From positions 1-64,000 of the forward strand of contig CABIZD010000011.1 of the NCBI GenBank assembly GCA_902363125.1: 64,000 nt of DNA, read 5' to 3'. Of the stretch, positions 7,155 to 9,286 are shown in pieces; position 1 is the first letter of the stretch, and every line of letters begins with the position of its first letter. This DNA comes from Coriobacteriaceae bacterium (lineage in GTDB: Bacteria; Actinomycetota; Coriobacteriia; Coriobacteriales; Coriobacteriaceae). The notes below the pieces were generated by a model. The model was given only the letters and a program-made list of their open reading frames with translations, ran no database searches and was not told where the DNA came from. The translations under genes were made by a program, and so were the position numbers.

Positions 7155-8534
7155 ATGAACACCGAGGAAATTGCGCGCATCGTCGGCGATCAGCGCACTT
7201 ACTTTAAAACGCACGCTACGTTTGATGTTGATGCCCGACGTCGCGCGCTCGTGAGTTTACGCGATGCGGTACGGGCGCACGAGGCCGATATTGCCCATGC
7301 ACTCAAGACCGATTTGGGAAAGTCGCATGACGAGGCATATATGTGCGAGATCGGCACGTCGCTTTCCGAGATTCGTCATCAGATCGCTCACGTGGCTCGA
7401 TGGAGTCGTCCGCGCCTGCGTCCGTGTGACCTTGCCAACGCCGTGAGCGCGTGCAAAACGCGAGCCGTGCCCTATGGCGTCACGCTCATCATGGCTCCGT
7501 GGAACTACCCGTTTTTGCTAACACTCGAGCCGCTCGCCGGCGCCCTTGCCGCGGGCAATACCGTGGTCATCAAGCCGAGTGCCTATGCTCCGGCATCGAG
7601 CGCGGTGCTCAAGCAAATCTGTGAAGAGGCATTTGATCCGCGCCTGGTGACGGTTGTCGAGGGCGGGCGCGCCGAGAACGAAGCGTTGCTCGATGAGTGC
7701 TGGGACAAGATCTTCTTTACCGGTAGCGTTCCGGTCGGCAAGCTCGTCATGGAGCGCGCGAGTAAAAACCTCACGCCCGTGACGCTTGAGCTGGGCGGCA
7801 AGAGCCCCTGCATCGTGGATGCGACGGCAAACTTGAAGGTCGCGGCACGGCGTATCGCCTTTGGCAAATGGCTCAACGTAGGGCAGACCTGCGTGGCGCC
7901 CGACTACCTGCTGGTCGATACGCGCGTGCACGACGAGCTGCTGGACCTCATCAGGGAAGAGGCCCGCCGTATGTTTGGCGAGCATCCGCTCGATAACGAG
8001 GATTATGGGCATATCGTCAACGCCAAGCATTTTGCGCGCGTGCGTGGGCTGATCGATCCCGATAAGGTTGTGCTTGGAGGCACGGCGCGCGAGTCATCGC
8101 TCAAGATTGAGCCGACGATTTTGGACGGCGTGACCCCCGATGACGCCGTGATGCAGGAGGAGATTTTCGGCCCCATCTTGCCGGTGCTGACGTTTGAGAG
8201 CCTAGACGAGGCCGAGACGTTTATTACGGATCGTCCGACGCCGCTGGCTCTGTATATCTTTAGCCAGGATCGCGCAGTTCAGCAGCGCTTTGTGCGTTAC
8301 GTGCCCTTTGGCGGCGGCTGCGTCAACGACACGATTATGCACTTGGCTACGAGCCATATGGGCTTTGGTGGCATGGGTGCGAGCGGTATGGGGCGGTACC
8401 ATGGACGCGAGAGCTTCGATACGTTTAGCCACAAGAAGAGCATCGTGAACAAGGCAACGTGGCTGGACGTGCCATTCCGCTATGCTCCTTACGCAAGCTG
8501 GAAGCACAAGTTCGTGCGCATGTTTGTGCATTAG
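7155..8534 (+). CDS. Aldehyde dehydrogenase family protein
   Basis: A 459-residue NAD(P)-dependent aldehyde dehydrogenase. The APWNYPF segment, the cofactor-site FTGSVPVGK, the general base in TLELGGKSP and the catalytic Cys in NVGQTCVAPDY are present. The short length and sequence pattern fit the fatty-aldehyde/YwdH-like subgroup, which is not CoA-acylating. AGGAGGG ribosome site; operonic with the upstream alcohol dehydrogenase. The two likely work on the same small or medium-chain aldehyde. Confidence 0.93.
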   Translation: MNTEEIARIVGDQRTYFKTHATFDVDARRRALVSLRDAVRAHEADIAHALKTDLGKSHDEAYMCEIGTSLSEIRHQIAHVARWSRPRLRPCDLANAVSACKTRAVPYGVTLIMAPWNYPFLLTLEPLAGALAAGNTVVIKPSAYAPASSAVLKQICEEAFDPRLVTVVEGGRAENEALLDECWDKIFFTGSVPVGKLVMERASKNLTPVTLELGGKSPCIVDATANLKVAARRIAFGKWLNVGQTCVAPDYLLVDTRVHDELLDLIREEARRMFGEHPLDNEDYGHIVNAKHFARVRGLIDPDKVVLGGTARESSLKIEPTILDGVTPDDAVMQEEIFGPILPVLTFESLDEAETFITDRPTPLALYIFSQDRAVQQRFVRYVPFGGGCVNDTIMHLATSHMGFGGMGASGMGRYHGRESFDTFSHKKSIVNKATWLDVPFRYAPYASWKHKFVRMFVH

Positions 8535-8542
8535 AAAAGGGC

Positions 8543-8576
8543 GCAGGTAATACGAACAAGTGTTCCTATTACCTGC
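8543..8576 (+). promoter_or_regulatory. SOS (LexA/DinR-type) box inside a larger dyad
   Basis: CGAACAAGTGTTCC (8553-8566) is an exact fit to the Gram-positive DinR/LexA consensus CGAACRNRYGTTYC. It lies inside a longer near-perfect palindrome, GCAGGTAATA (8543-8552) with TATTACCTGC (8567-8576). A weak promoter TTCCTA-17-TAGACT (8563-8591) overlaps its right half, so LexA bound here would block it. It precedes the small membrane peptide gene at 8640. Confidence 0.7.
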
Positions 8577-8613
8577 ATTTTGCGTTAGACTACTGTTATG
8601 GAGCACGGATGGG

Positions 8614-8638
8614 CCAACTCCCTTTAGAAGGGATTTGG
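8614..8638 (+). promoter_or_regulatory. Hairpin masking the ribosome site of the small peptide
   Basis: TCCCTT (8619-8624) pairs with AAGGGA (8628-8633), extended by CCAA/TTGG (8614-8617, 8635-8638), with a three-base loop. AAGGGA is the Shine-Dalgarno sequence of the 8640 start codon, so the mRNA would be translated poorly unless the stem opens. This is typical of type I toxin messages. Confidence 0.65.
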
Positions 8639-8639
8639 T

Positions 8640-8723
8640 ATGAACGTAAGCGATGTTATTTCGTTATTGGCGTTGTTGATTGCGGCTATCGAACTCGGTC
8701 TGTTTATCGGCCGAATGAAATAG
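8640..8723 (+). CDS. 27-residue hydrophobic membrane peptide, candidate type I toxin
   Basis: The peptide starts MNVSDVISLLALL, has one continuous transmembrane stretch of about 20 residues, and ends in the charged tail GRMK. It resembles in build the TxpA/holin-like and TisB toxins of type I toxin-antitoxin systems that depolarise the membrane. An SOS box lies upstream, its ribosome site is masked in a hairpin, and a promoter faces it from the other strand at 8818-8846. A short stem follows the stop codon. Toxicity is inferred; a small non-toxic membrane protein is the alternative. Confidence 0.6.
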   Translation: MNVSDVISLLALLIAAIELGLFIGRMK

Positions 8724-8779
8724 CCGCCCCCGCGTAAGCGAAGACGGCCACTTCTCACGATGAAAACGTGTATCGGAGT

Positions 8780-8804
8780 TGGCAAGACCCGCGGCAACGG
8801 GTGC
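8780..8804. terminator. Candidate 3' hairpin of the peptide mRNA
   Basis: GGCA-AG-ACCCG (8781-8791) pairs with CGGGT-GCC (8798-8805) with a short loop. It would fold in both the peptide mRNA and an antisense RNA from 8811, and is the likely zone of first contact between the two. It is weak as a terminator because T residues are sparse. Confidence 0.35.
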
Positions 8805-8817
8805 CATCCGTGTTCCT

Positions 8818-8846
8818 ATCTTATCTGCAAGCGTTCTGTCGCGCAA
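8818..8846 (-). promoter_or_regulatory. Promoter for an antisense RNA against the small peptide mRNA
   Basis: On the minus strand TTGCGC (8846-8841) and TAAGAT (8823-8818) are spaced exactly 17 nt, a good sigma-70-type promoter. Transcription would start near 8811 and run through the 3' part of the peptide mRNA. No minus-strand gene lies there, so an antisense RNA of the RatA type is the simplest product. Confidence 0.5.
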
Positions 8847-8959
8847 GCGTTGAGGCAAACGATTGAAGGACGCAGACAGGATGTATTTGTGTCCGCACGG
8901 GACCGTAGACTTCTCAATAAGGTTACACACCGGTTTATCCGGCCGTTAGAGGAGCTGCT

Positions 8960-9286
8960 ATGTACGAGCCTTCGCGTGTTCTTCTGTCATTTCACATTGC
9001 AGGATTTCAGTATGCCGATGGCGCTTTGGTCCTAGGCGATCTTAAAGCGGGCGATAAACTGACGCTGTGTGCCGAGCGCGATAATCCCCATGACCCCGAG
9101 GCAGTTGCGATCTACTATGGCAAGACCAAACTTGGCTACGTTCCGGGAAACGAGGTCGGCCCACTGTCCTTGATGATGTATTACGGCCACGAGGACGTAT
9201 TTGAGGCCCGTGTGCAACAGGTTGCCCCCGAGCGCAGCCCGTGGCATCAGGTGCGCGTTGGGCTCTACGTGGTGGATGCTCGCTAG
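8960..9286 (+). CDS. HIRAN domain protein
   Basis: 108 residues made almost wholly of a HIRAN domain: FHIAGFQYADG, then LKAGDKLTLCAERDNPHDPEAVAIYY and LGYVPGNEVGPLS. HIRAN domains bind single-stranded 3' DNA ends in helicases such as HLTF, or occur alone in bacteria with repair genes. The role here is unknown; DNA-end or damage sensing is an inference strengthened only mildly by the SOS box 400 bp upstream. GAGGAG ribosome site at correct spacing. It is followed closely by a small acidic protein gene. Confidence 0.8.
   Translation: MYEPSRVLLSFHIAGFQYADGALVLGDLKAGDKLTLCAERDNPHDPEAVAIYYGKTKLGYVPGNEVGPLSLMMYYGHEDVFEARVQQVAPERSPWHQVRVGLYVVDAR

Follow-up and report, generated by a model that had tools for sequence, protein, structure and literature searches.

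A candidate SOS-controlled type I toxin-antitoxin cassette in Collinsella and its relatives

The window, a stretch of 64,000 nucleotides from a Coriobacteriaceae bacterium, contains a compact cassette that we interpret, with a probability of roughly three in four, as a chromosomal, SOS-controlled type I toxin-antitoxin system with a TxpA/RatA-like layout. This interpretation draws on sequence comparison, which supports five aspects of the cassette: its LexA box, a conserved open reading frame (ORF), an antisense RNA gene, gain and loss as a unit, and a one-sided dependence of the toxin on the antisense RNA. The original prediction, a LexA-controlled type I candidate, is supported by these results and was right in substance.

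Cassette layout and proposed mode of action

The cassette consists of the following elements, with positions referring to the window.

8537..8851, strand not assigned: whole cassette, ends approximate; present or absent as a single unit across Collinsella
8543..8576, plus strand: box dyad of 34 nt, with perfect 9-nt arms around the LexA box (RNA fold, co-variation of the arms)
8553..8566, strand not assigned: LexA/DinR box CGAACAAGTGTTCC (exact sequence and comparison)
about 8569-8574, plus strand: probable -35 of the peptide mRNA, immediately 3' of the LexA box
8591..8596, plus strand: probable -10 of the peptide mRNA, TACTGT (from sequence; TACAAT at the same spot in arsR-linked paralogs)
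8604..8621, plus strand: 5' arm that could base-pair with the 3' region of the same mRNA, at 8775-8783 and 8803-8812 (duplex energies)
8614..8638, plus strand: hairpin covering the Shine-Dalgarno (SD) sequence at 8628-8635 (folding)
8640..8723, plus strand: putative toxin ORF of 27 codons, MNVSDVISLLALLIAAIELGLFIGRMK, with one transmembrane helix and a basic C-terminus
8712..8811, minus strand: predicted antisense RNA of ~100 nt with three hairpins (RNA model R1; start inferred from the -10)
8717..8754, minus strand: predicted antisense terminator hairpin of 17 pairs, including the toxin stop codon (strand-specific pairing; inner part also in the generic scan)
8818..8846, minus strand: facing promoter TTGCGC-17-TAAGAT (TTGAAA-17-TAAGAT in arsR-linked paralogs)

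The box, the dyad, the SD hairpin, the 27-residue ORF and the facing promoter were all found in the sequence where the original prediction had placed them. Upstream, the cassette is flanked by a gene at 7155-8534, which we take, from reading it by eye, to be aldehyde dehydrogenase-like, and downstream by a 108-aa ORF at 8960-9286, presumably encoding a HIRAN-type protein. With its predicted terminator at 8754-8717, the antisense RNA should overlap the message beginning with the last three toxin codons and the stop codon.

Regarding transcription of both strands, LexA binding, toxicity, the mode of inhibition and the physiological role, we infer the following scheme. LexA bound to the box at 8554-8565 would keep the peptide promoter off, and DNA damage, acting through RecA and LexA cleavage, would release it. 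A local hairpin of the mRNA would hide the SD, and the 5' end could pair with the 3' end of the same molecule, so that little peptide would be made from leaky transcripts. A steadily made antisense RNA of ~100 nt, starting at ~8811, would pair with the 3' region of the mRNA including the stop codon, probably leading to mRNA decay (by RNase III, as for RatA) and/or keeping the SD closed (as for SR4). Upon SOS induction the mRNA would be in excess, and the 27-aa peptide would be made, insert into the membrane and slow growth.

Taken singly, the signals in the window are faint. The weak promoter proposed to overlap the box is in place, and a generic promoter scan found no sigma-70 site at threshold in 8300-9100 (0 found, 0.6 expected), so both cassette promoters are weak by consensus. 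The generic scan of the window region gave no sense terminator 3' of the peptide ORF, and Rfam returned 0 matches over the gathering score in the 64-kb window. Shuffles of the 64-kb window contain a mean of 0.98 GAACNNNNGTTC sites, which gives the box little weight by itself. With about one such box expected by chance and an empty promoter scan, the case therefore rests on comparison.

Conservation of the peptide and its antisense RNA

A peptide search of 43 Collinsella genomes at E<=0.1 yielded 24 loci, distributed over 19 of the genomes (L011, at E 0.25, was excluded). Ten of these loci lie at the window position; nine encode an identical 27-residue peptide, one of them (L015) having lost its stop codon, and the tenth is 93% identical. 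Conservation of the peptide in related genomes, on which the original prediction depended, thus holds, with identical copies in 9/43 Collinsella genomes. Seven further loci are 63% paralogs next to what we read as an ArsR-like gene, and the remaining seven lie next to a gene that we read as endonuclease III-like, or elsewhere; the copies that are not of the window type are 50-64% identical. Paralogous loci with different neighbours retain the box, the peptide and the facing promoter. Compared to the window, L003 differs in 4 codons, all silently, and L016 in 3 silent and 2 non-silent codons. As expected of a type I toxin, the peptide is short and hydrophobic with a single membrane helix, hydropathy over 19 residues reaching 2.53 among the toxin modules.

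A probe derived from the downstream ORF matched in 24 of the 43 Collinsella genomes, 17 of them closely, and ten of these 17 carry the cassette and seven do not. At the seven empty sites, the upstream stop codon is followed by ~16 bp and then by the common downstream flank. The unit that is gained or lost measures ~315 bp and comprises the box, the ORF and the facing promoter, the three elements that the original prediction had proposed to look for together in Collinsella.

The window peptide has no match in Pfam at E<=10 (the search filters discard most weak ones), no NCBIfam or PHROG family, and no solved structure in the PDB better than E 9.9. A relation to the TisB family, of which Pfam presumably includes a model, likewise finds no Pfam match. 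Membership in Hol_Tox (PF16935) was considered and rejected, as no profile match over the cut-off was obtained with the peptide (no match), its relatives (best of 10, E 0.073, under the cut-off) or 246 genomes (0/246; best G079, E 4.7e-4, under the cut-off). Carriage as cargo of a mobile element was also rejected, the cassette being unmatched in plasmids and phages by blastn and its 22-base core absent from viral contigs by exact match; a tblastn search for a distant toxin gave no match in plasmids or phages, which is a weak test with 26 residues.

On the antisense strand, most, not all, distinct Collinsella sequences fold into three similar hairpins. RNA model R1 was built from 14 Collinsella antisense sequences, the window copy among them. 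At E<=0.1 it matched in 30/43 Collinsella genomes. Across the class, 56 of the 396 genomes sampled gave a match at E<=0.01, representing 16 of 153 genera; E-values reached 6e-11 in families outside the training set, and the weak tail includes chance matches. A sample of 396 genomes from the phylum gave only three marginal R1 hits outside the class. Weak RNA matches (e.g. L292, L293, L297, L301-L304, L306 and L307) were inspected and not counted as modules. A loose pattern scan of genome contigs gave at least 80 loci, and among the matches listed only L106, from Collinsella aerofaciens MCC370, fits R1 well.

The predicted fold is accompanied by compensatory change. Alignment A4 (48 distinct rows) has 89.8% of cells paired, two-sided changes at 24/35 pairs (14.3 in shuffled alignments) and a covariation of 0.333, compared with 0.199 for shuffled alignments and 0.07-0.12 for slid structures, although its having been fitted to the structure inflates pair counts and one row (L024, plus strand) is doubtful. 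The unfitted MAFFT alignment A2 (14 rows) scores 0.248, compared with 0.160 for shuffled alignments and 0.07-0.13 for slid structures; its support is weaker, with 10 two-sided pairs against 6.2 in shuffles and 30 further pair types against 27.6, the latter matched by 86/500 shuffles.

The 3' stem contains many G-U pairs, which correspond to A-C on the opposite strand. Accordingly paired cells of the terminator stem amount to 96.3% on the antisense and 70.0% on the sense strand, with energies of -28.4 and -15.2 kcal/mol, and the antisense form is the more stable in 52 of 53 cases. This asymmetry argues that function resides in the antisense strand. Furthermore, the regions upstream of the antisense RNA (60 distinct copies of 68 rows) have a mean promoter score of 8.7, compared with 5.2 (sd 1.7) for base shuffles, and 72% of them are at or above the 95th percentile of shuffles. 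Comparison thus points to the arrangement typical of type I systems, namely an overlapping antisense RNA with its own promoter and terminator. The proposed antisense RNA gene is supported by covariation, the conserved promoter, the strand-specific terminator and survival without the toxin. A fortuitous combination of a terminator with a short ORF and promoter-like sequences would agree with the weakness of the single elements and with the one box expected per window, but it is refuted by conservation across families of the order, by covariation and by gain and loss as a unit, leaving it a probability next to nil.

The two partners of the module are unequal in their retention. The 39 Collinsella RNA loci at E<1e-8 were examined for a toxin by means of ORF lists and three-frame translations. 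Of these loci, 24 lie opposite a toxin ORF (including L022, whose toxin stop lies elsewhere), 2 face a broken one (L015 in G050, with its stop lost, and L026 in G045, a tandem copy with an internal TGA) and 13 face none and also lack the box (L248, L249, L250, L252, L254, L255, L257, L259, L260 and L268-L271). These 13 loci occupy three sites with, on our reading, at least four distinct junctions, and are not 13 independent events; L260 retains a mere remnant of the toxin C-terminus. Most of the toxin-less antisense copies examined keep their promoter; those of L259 and L260 seem decayed. At a further locus, L267 in G225, a LexA box GAACGTTTGTTC, an SD and a start codon are followed by an apparent deletion of nearly the whole toxin, and the antisense gene is kept.

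Such toxin-less loci (13/39), with promoters mostly intact where examined, could suggest that the antisense RNA is itself the functional element, a trans-acting small RNA to which the opposite ORF is secondary. We regard this as very improbable, as the ORF recurs in 42 divergent modules with mostly silent changes among close copies, and the seemingly decayed promoters of the toxin-less L259 and L260 are what would be expected of a relic.

A toxin-antitoxin module is favoured by the converse search. Searched over 396 genomes of the class, the toxin profile (alignment A3) identified 60 loci at E<=1e-3, of which Collinsella accounts for 25 and other members of the class for 35. All 60 have an antisense RNA on the opposite strand at the 3' end of the ORF, found in the Collinsella search (25), the class search (17) or a small local search (18; L323-L338, with E-values up to 0.0098), and no toxin without its RNA was observed among them. 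The toxin is therefore not kept without its antitoxin (60/60 loci), the converse being seen at 13/39. Antisense RNA without toxin, and never toxin without antisense RNA, is predicted by an addiction module and not by a plain SOS effector. The peptide could nevertheless be a non-lethal SOS effector whose dose is merely tuned by the antisense RNA, for instance a small membrane inhibitor of division like SidA of Caulobacter, which is reportedly similar in size, and a LexA box adjoining a single-helix peptide is in line with this. However, a LexA box is missing from 31/42 modules, which makes the peptide and antisense RNA, rather than SOS and peptide, the core unit; the peptide has not been found without the RNA, the RNA occurs without the peptide, and the cassette is dispensable, all of which is toxin-antitoxin behaviour and makes the effector alternative unlikely.

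LexA boxes and the SOS regulon

The sequence CGAACAAGTGTTCC at 8553-8566 fits CGAACRNRYGTTYC, the DinR/LexA consensus form, and lies within the dyad GCAGGTAAT-N16-ATTACCTGC at 8543-8576. The box is exact in 10/10 orthologous copies and in 7/7 arsR-linked paralogs. LexA itself scored over the cut-off in 43/43 Collinsella genomes, and lexA is preceded by two exact GAAC-N4-GTTC boxes in 29/29 readable Collinsella loci (30 were fetched, and one contig was too short); the proximal box is often CGAACAGTTGTTCCT, close to the window's CGAACAAGTGTTCCT. In the nearest genome, which shares 50% of the window's sampled words, GAACNNNNGTTC is not over-represented, with 26 sites compared with 101 for a reversed control pattern, and it is therefore the placement of the sites that matters. 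Several of the 26 fall within genes, and others lie at promoters of genes that we read as recA, ruvC, rarA, a gyrB-like and a GyrI-like gene. The assumption that LexA of this genus uses the consensus of the box is thus supported by the sites before lexA and the genes read as recA, ruvC and rarA, and the peptide promoter, by its sequence, carries a box of the host's own consensus, as a member of the LexA (SOS) regulon would.

The box was further assessed in 42 toxin modules drawn from the class, some of which are orthologs of one another and not all independent. An exact box occurs in 11 of the 42, in every case 77-89 nt before the start codon, where ~0.1 exact boxes would be expected in all 42 modules (42 x 189 positions / 65,536; our own arithmetic). 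We accordingly reject the box as a chance occurrence. Six of the boxed modules are in Collinsella (aldH- and arsR-linked types) and five in two other families of the order. The other 31 modules, including the nth-linked Collinsella copies, have no exact box within 200 nt of the start. The box counts as evidence because it is exact in orthologs and paralogs, recurs at lexA and the genes read as recA, ruvC and rarA, and keeps to one narrow range of positions in the 11 boxed modules. Outside Collinsella, lexA was inspected in eight genomes from these two families: two exact boxes are present in 4/5 genomes of f2, with one-mismatch sites only in the fifth (G285), and all 3/3 genomes of f5 have one-mismatch sites only. 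SOS control appears likely for some lineages, absent in most, and would not be a trait of the whole toxin family.

It is conceivable that the module is a toxin-antitoxin system in which the box is a non-working LexA operator and the toxin is controlled otherwise, since box-free relatives are the majority and the box ends ~25 nt upstream of the likely -10. Set against this are the narrow range of positions to which the exact boxes keep across several lineages and the identical form of the lexA, recA and ruvC boxes, and we give a non-working operator a slender chance.

Within an SOS-controlled cassette, our preferred reading, the sequence around the box may have a second role. As RNA, positions 8535-8600 have a folding energy of -20.3 kcal/mol (z -3.1), and the arms of the dyad co-vary in L004 and L016. 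The dyad is missing from empty sites, and its arms were observed in no other type than the aldH-linked one, whose upstream gene is directed towards the cassette. The outer arms are a probable terminator of the upstream gene, with the LexA box at the tip. Such a terminator would keep transcription of the upstream gene from running on into the toxin.

Two further sites were noted in genome G001. At L204 (G001:C1:1193461), a GAACACCTGTTC site lies ~180 nt upstream of an rpoB-like gene, an odd LexA target. L202 (G001:C1:783269) is a second exact copy of the window 12-mer GAACAAGTGTTC, with perfect 10-nt arms around AAGT, and the sole toxin copy found in this genome is elsewhere.

mRNA structure and relation to known type I systems

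In 40 of the 42 modules (L022 and L333 were omitted because their stop codons lie elsewhere), the SD is unpaired at 0.21, compared with 0.41 for shuffled leaders, and the value is lower in 33/40 (Wilcoxon p 6e-8, the modules not being independent). Complementarity between the 5' end and the 3' region of the mRNA is specific to the lineage: over 42 modules, cognate duplexes average -55.7 kcal/mol and non-cognate ones -45.1 kcal/mol. The cognate pairing ranks among the top three of 42 in 26/42 modules and 12th or lower in eight (L019, L021, L022, L280, L294, L305, L326 and L330); these energies are noisy, as part of the sequence compared is untranscribed and L333, despite a misplaced 3' region, comes out first. 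Because the antisense RNA is the complement of the mRNA 3' region, mRNA and antitoxin begin alike. An effect of antisense binding at the 3' end on SD access in silico was too weak to claim: the computed accessibility of the window SD stayed at 0.30 in all three states, and of 40 modules, 7 had the SD closed and 1 had it opened upon binding.

The proposed likeness to TisB/IstR-1 of E. coli holds for the logic, which is shared with DinQ/AgrB as well: a tiny membrane peptide under SOS control and an RNA antitoxin. According to the available text of two sources, the TisB and DinQ peptides have 29 and 27 aa and the tisB ribosome site is sequestered (PMC8309996, PMC4147584), and IstR-1 acts at a 5' standby site (PMC4147584). 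The likeness does not extend to this 5' layout or to the peptide: unlike IstR-1, the window antisense RNA is complementary to the mRNA 3' end, though its own 5' end resembles that of the mRNA, and the window peptide has neither a detectable sequence relation to TisB nor a Pfam match.

The TxpA/RatA overlap layout, the other part of the comparison, stands, as the antisense RNA is convergent and complementary to the mRNA 3' end, like those of TxpA/RatA and BsrG/SR4 of B. subtilis. The TxpA and BsrG toxins have 59 and 38 aa, compared with 27 in the window. Unlike these two systems, which reside in prophage-like elements, the window cassette lies between ordinary genes. The overlap of bsrG and SR4 is ~120 nt, the bsrG SD is inside a stem, and the RatA and SR4 antitoxins act via mRNA decay and closing of the SD stem; LexA control is not mentioned for either system in the available text of the same source (PMC4147584). 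Convergent, overlapping toxin and antisense genes also characterize the CD2517.1-RCd8 group of C. difficile (PMC6563280), which, unlike the window cassette, belongs to Firmicutes; LexA has 0 occurrences in the main text of that Clostridia review, which in its available parts mentions SOS-inducible type I systems from E. coli only (PMC6563280). MsoT1/MsoA1 of Microcystis similarly places a type I locus beyond the classical phyla, but its host is a cyanobacterium and the available text mentions no SOS link (PMC12390103).

As far as their available text goes, a 2021 review places membrane type I toxins in Proteobacteria and Firmicutes alone (PMC8309996), and a 2025 paper lists Proteobacteria, Firmicutes, Tenericutes and its own cyanobacterial case as the sole type I phyla (PMC12390103). 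Titles and the beginnings of abstracts, with subscription papers, T1TAdb and preprints outside the scope, revealed no type I system in Collinsella, Actinobacteria or Actinomycetota, and the cassette is apparently the first type I toxin-antitoxin of Actinomycetota. We tentatively postulate, holding the whole somewhat likelier to be wrong than right, an old type I family of Collinsella's order, the first in Actinomycetota, in which toxin mRNA and antitoxin would share a nearly identical start, so that the mRNA 5' end would mimic the antitoxin and compete with it for the mRNA 3' tail, LexA boxes would be gained or lost from lineage to lineage at a fixed place, and the antitoxin alone would often be kept against incoming toxin cassettes. 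A covariation-supported family in Actinomycetota would widen the phylum range of type I systems, and R1 provides an RNA model to search with. An SOS-linked dormancy switch in human gut bacteria would be testable for tolerance to DNA-damaging drugs, and the intact, toxin-less, broken and empty loci of a single genus form a natural series on which the evolution of addiction modules can be tested directly.

Beyond what the original prediction had envisaged, we observed paralogous cassettes, empty sites, toxin-less antisense genes and relatives across the order, mostly box-free. Genomes of another family (L328 in G285; L323-L327 in G089 and G234) hold three to five toxin copies each, without LexA boxes, and in these multi-copy genomes three of the copies are arranged in tandem within about 1.1 kb.
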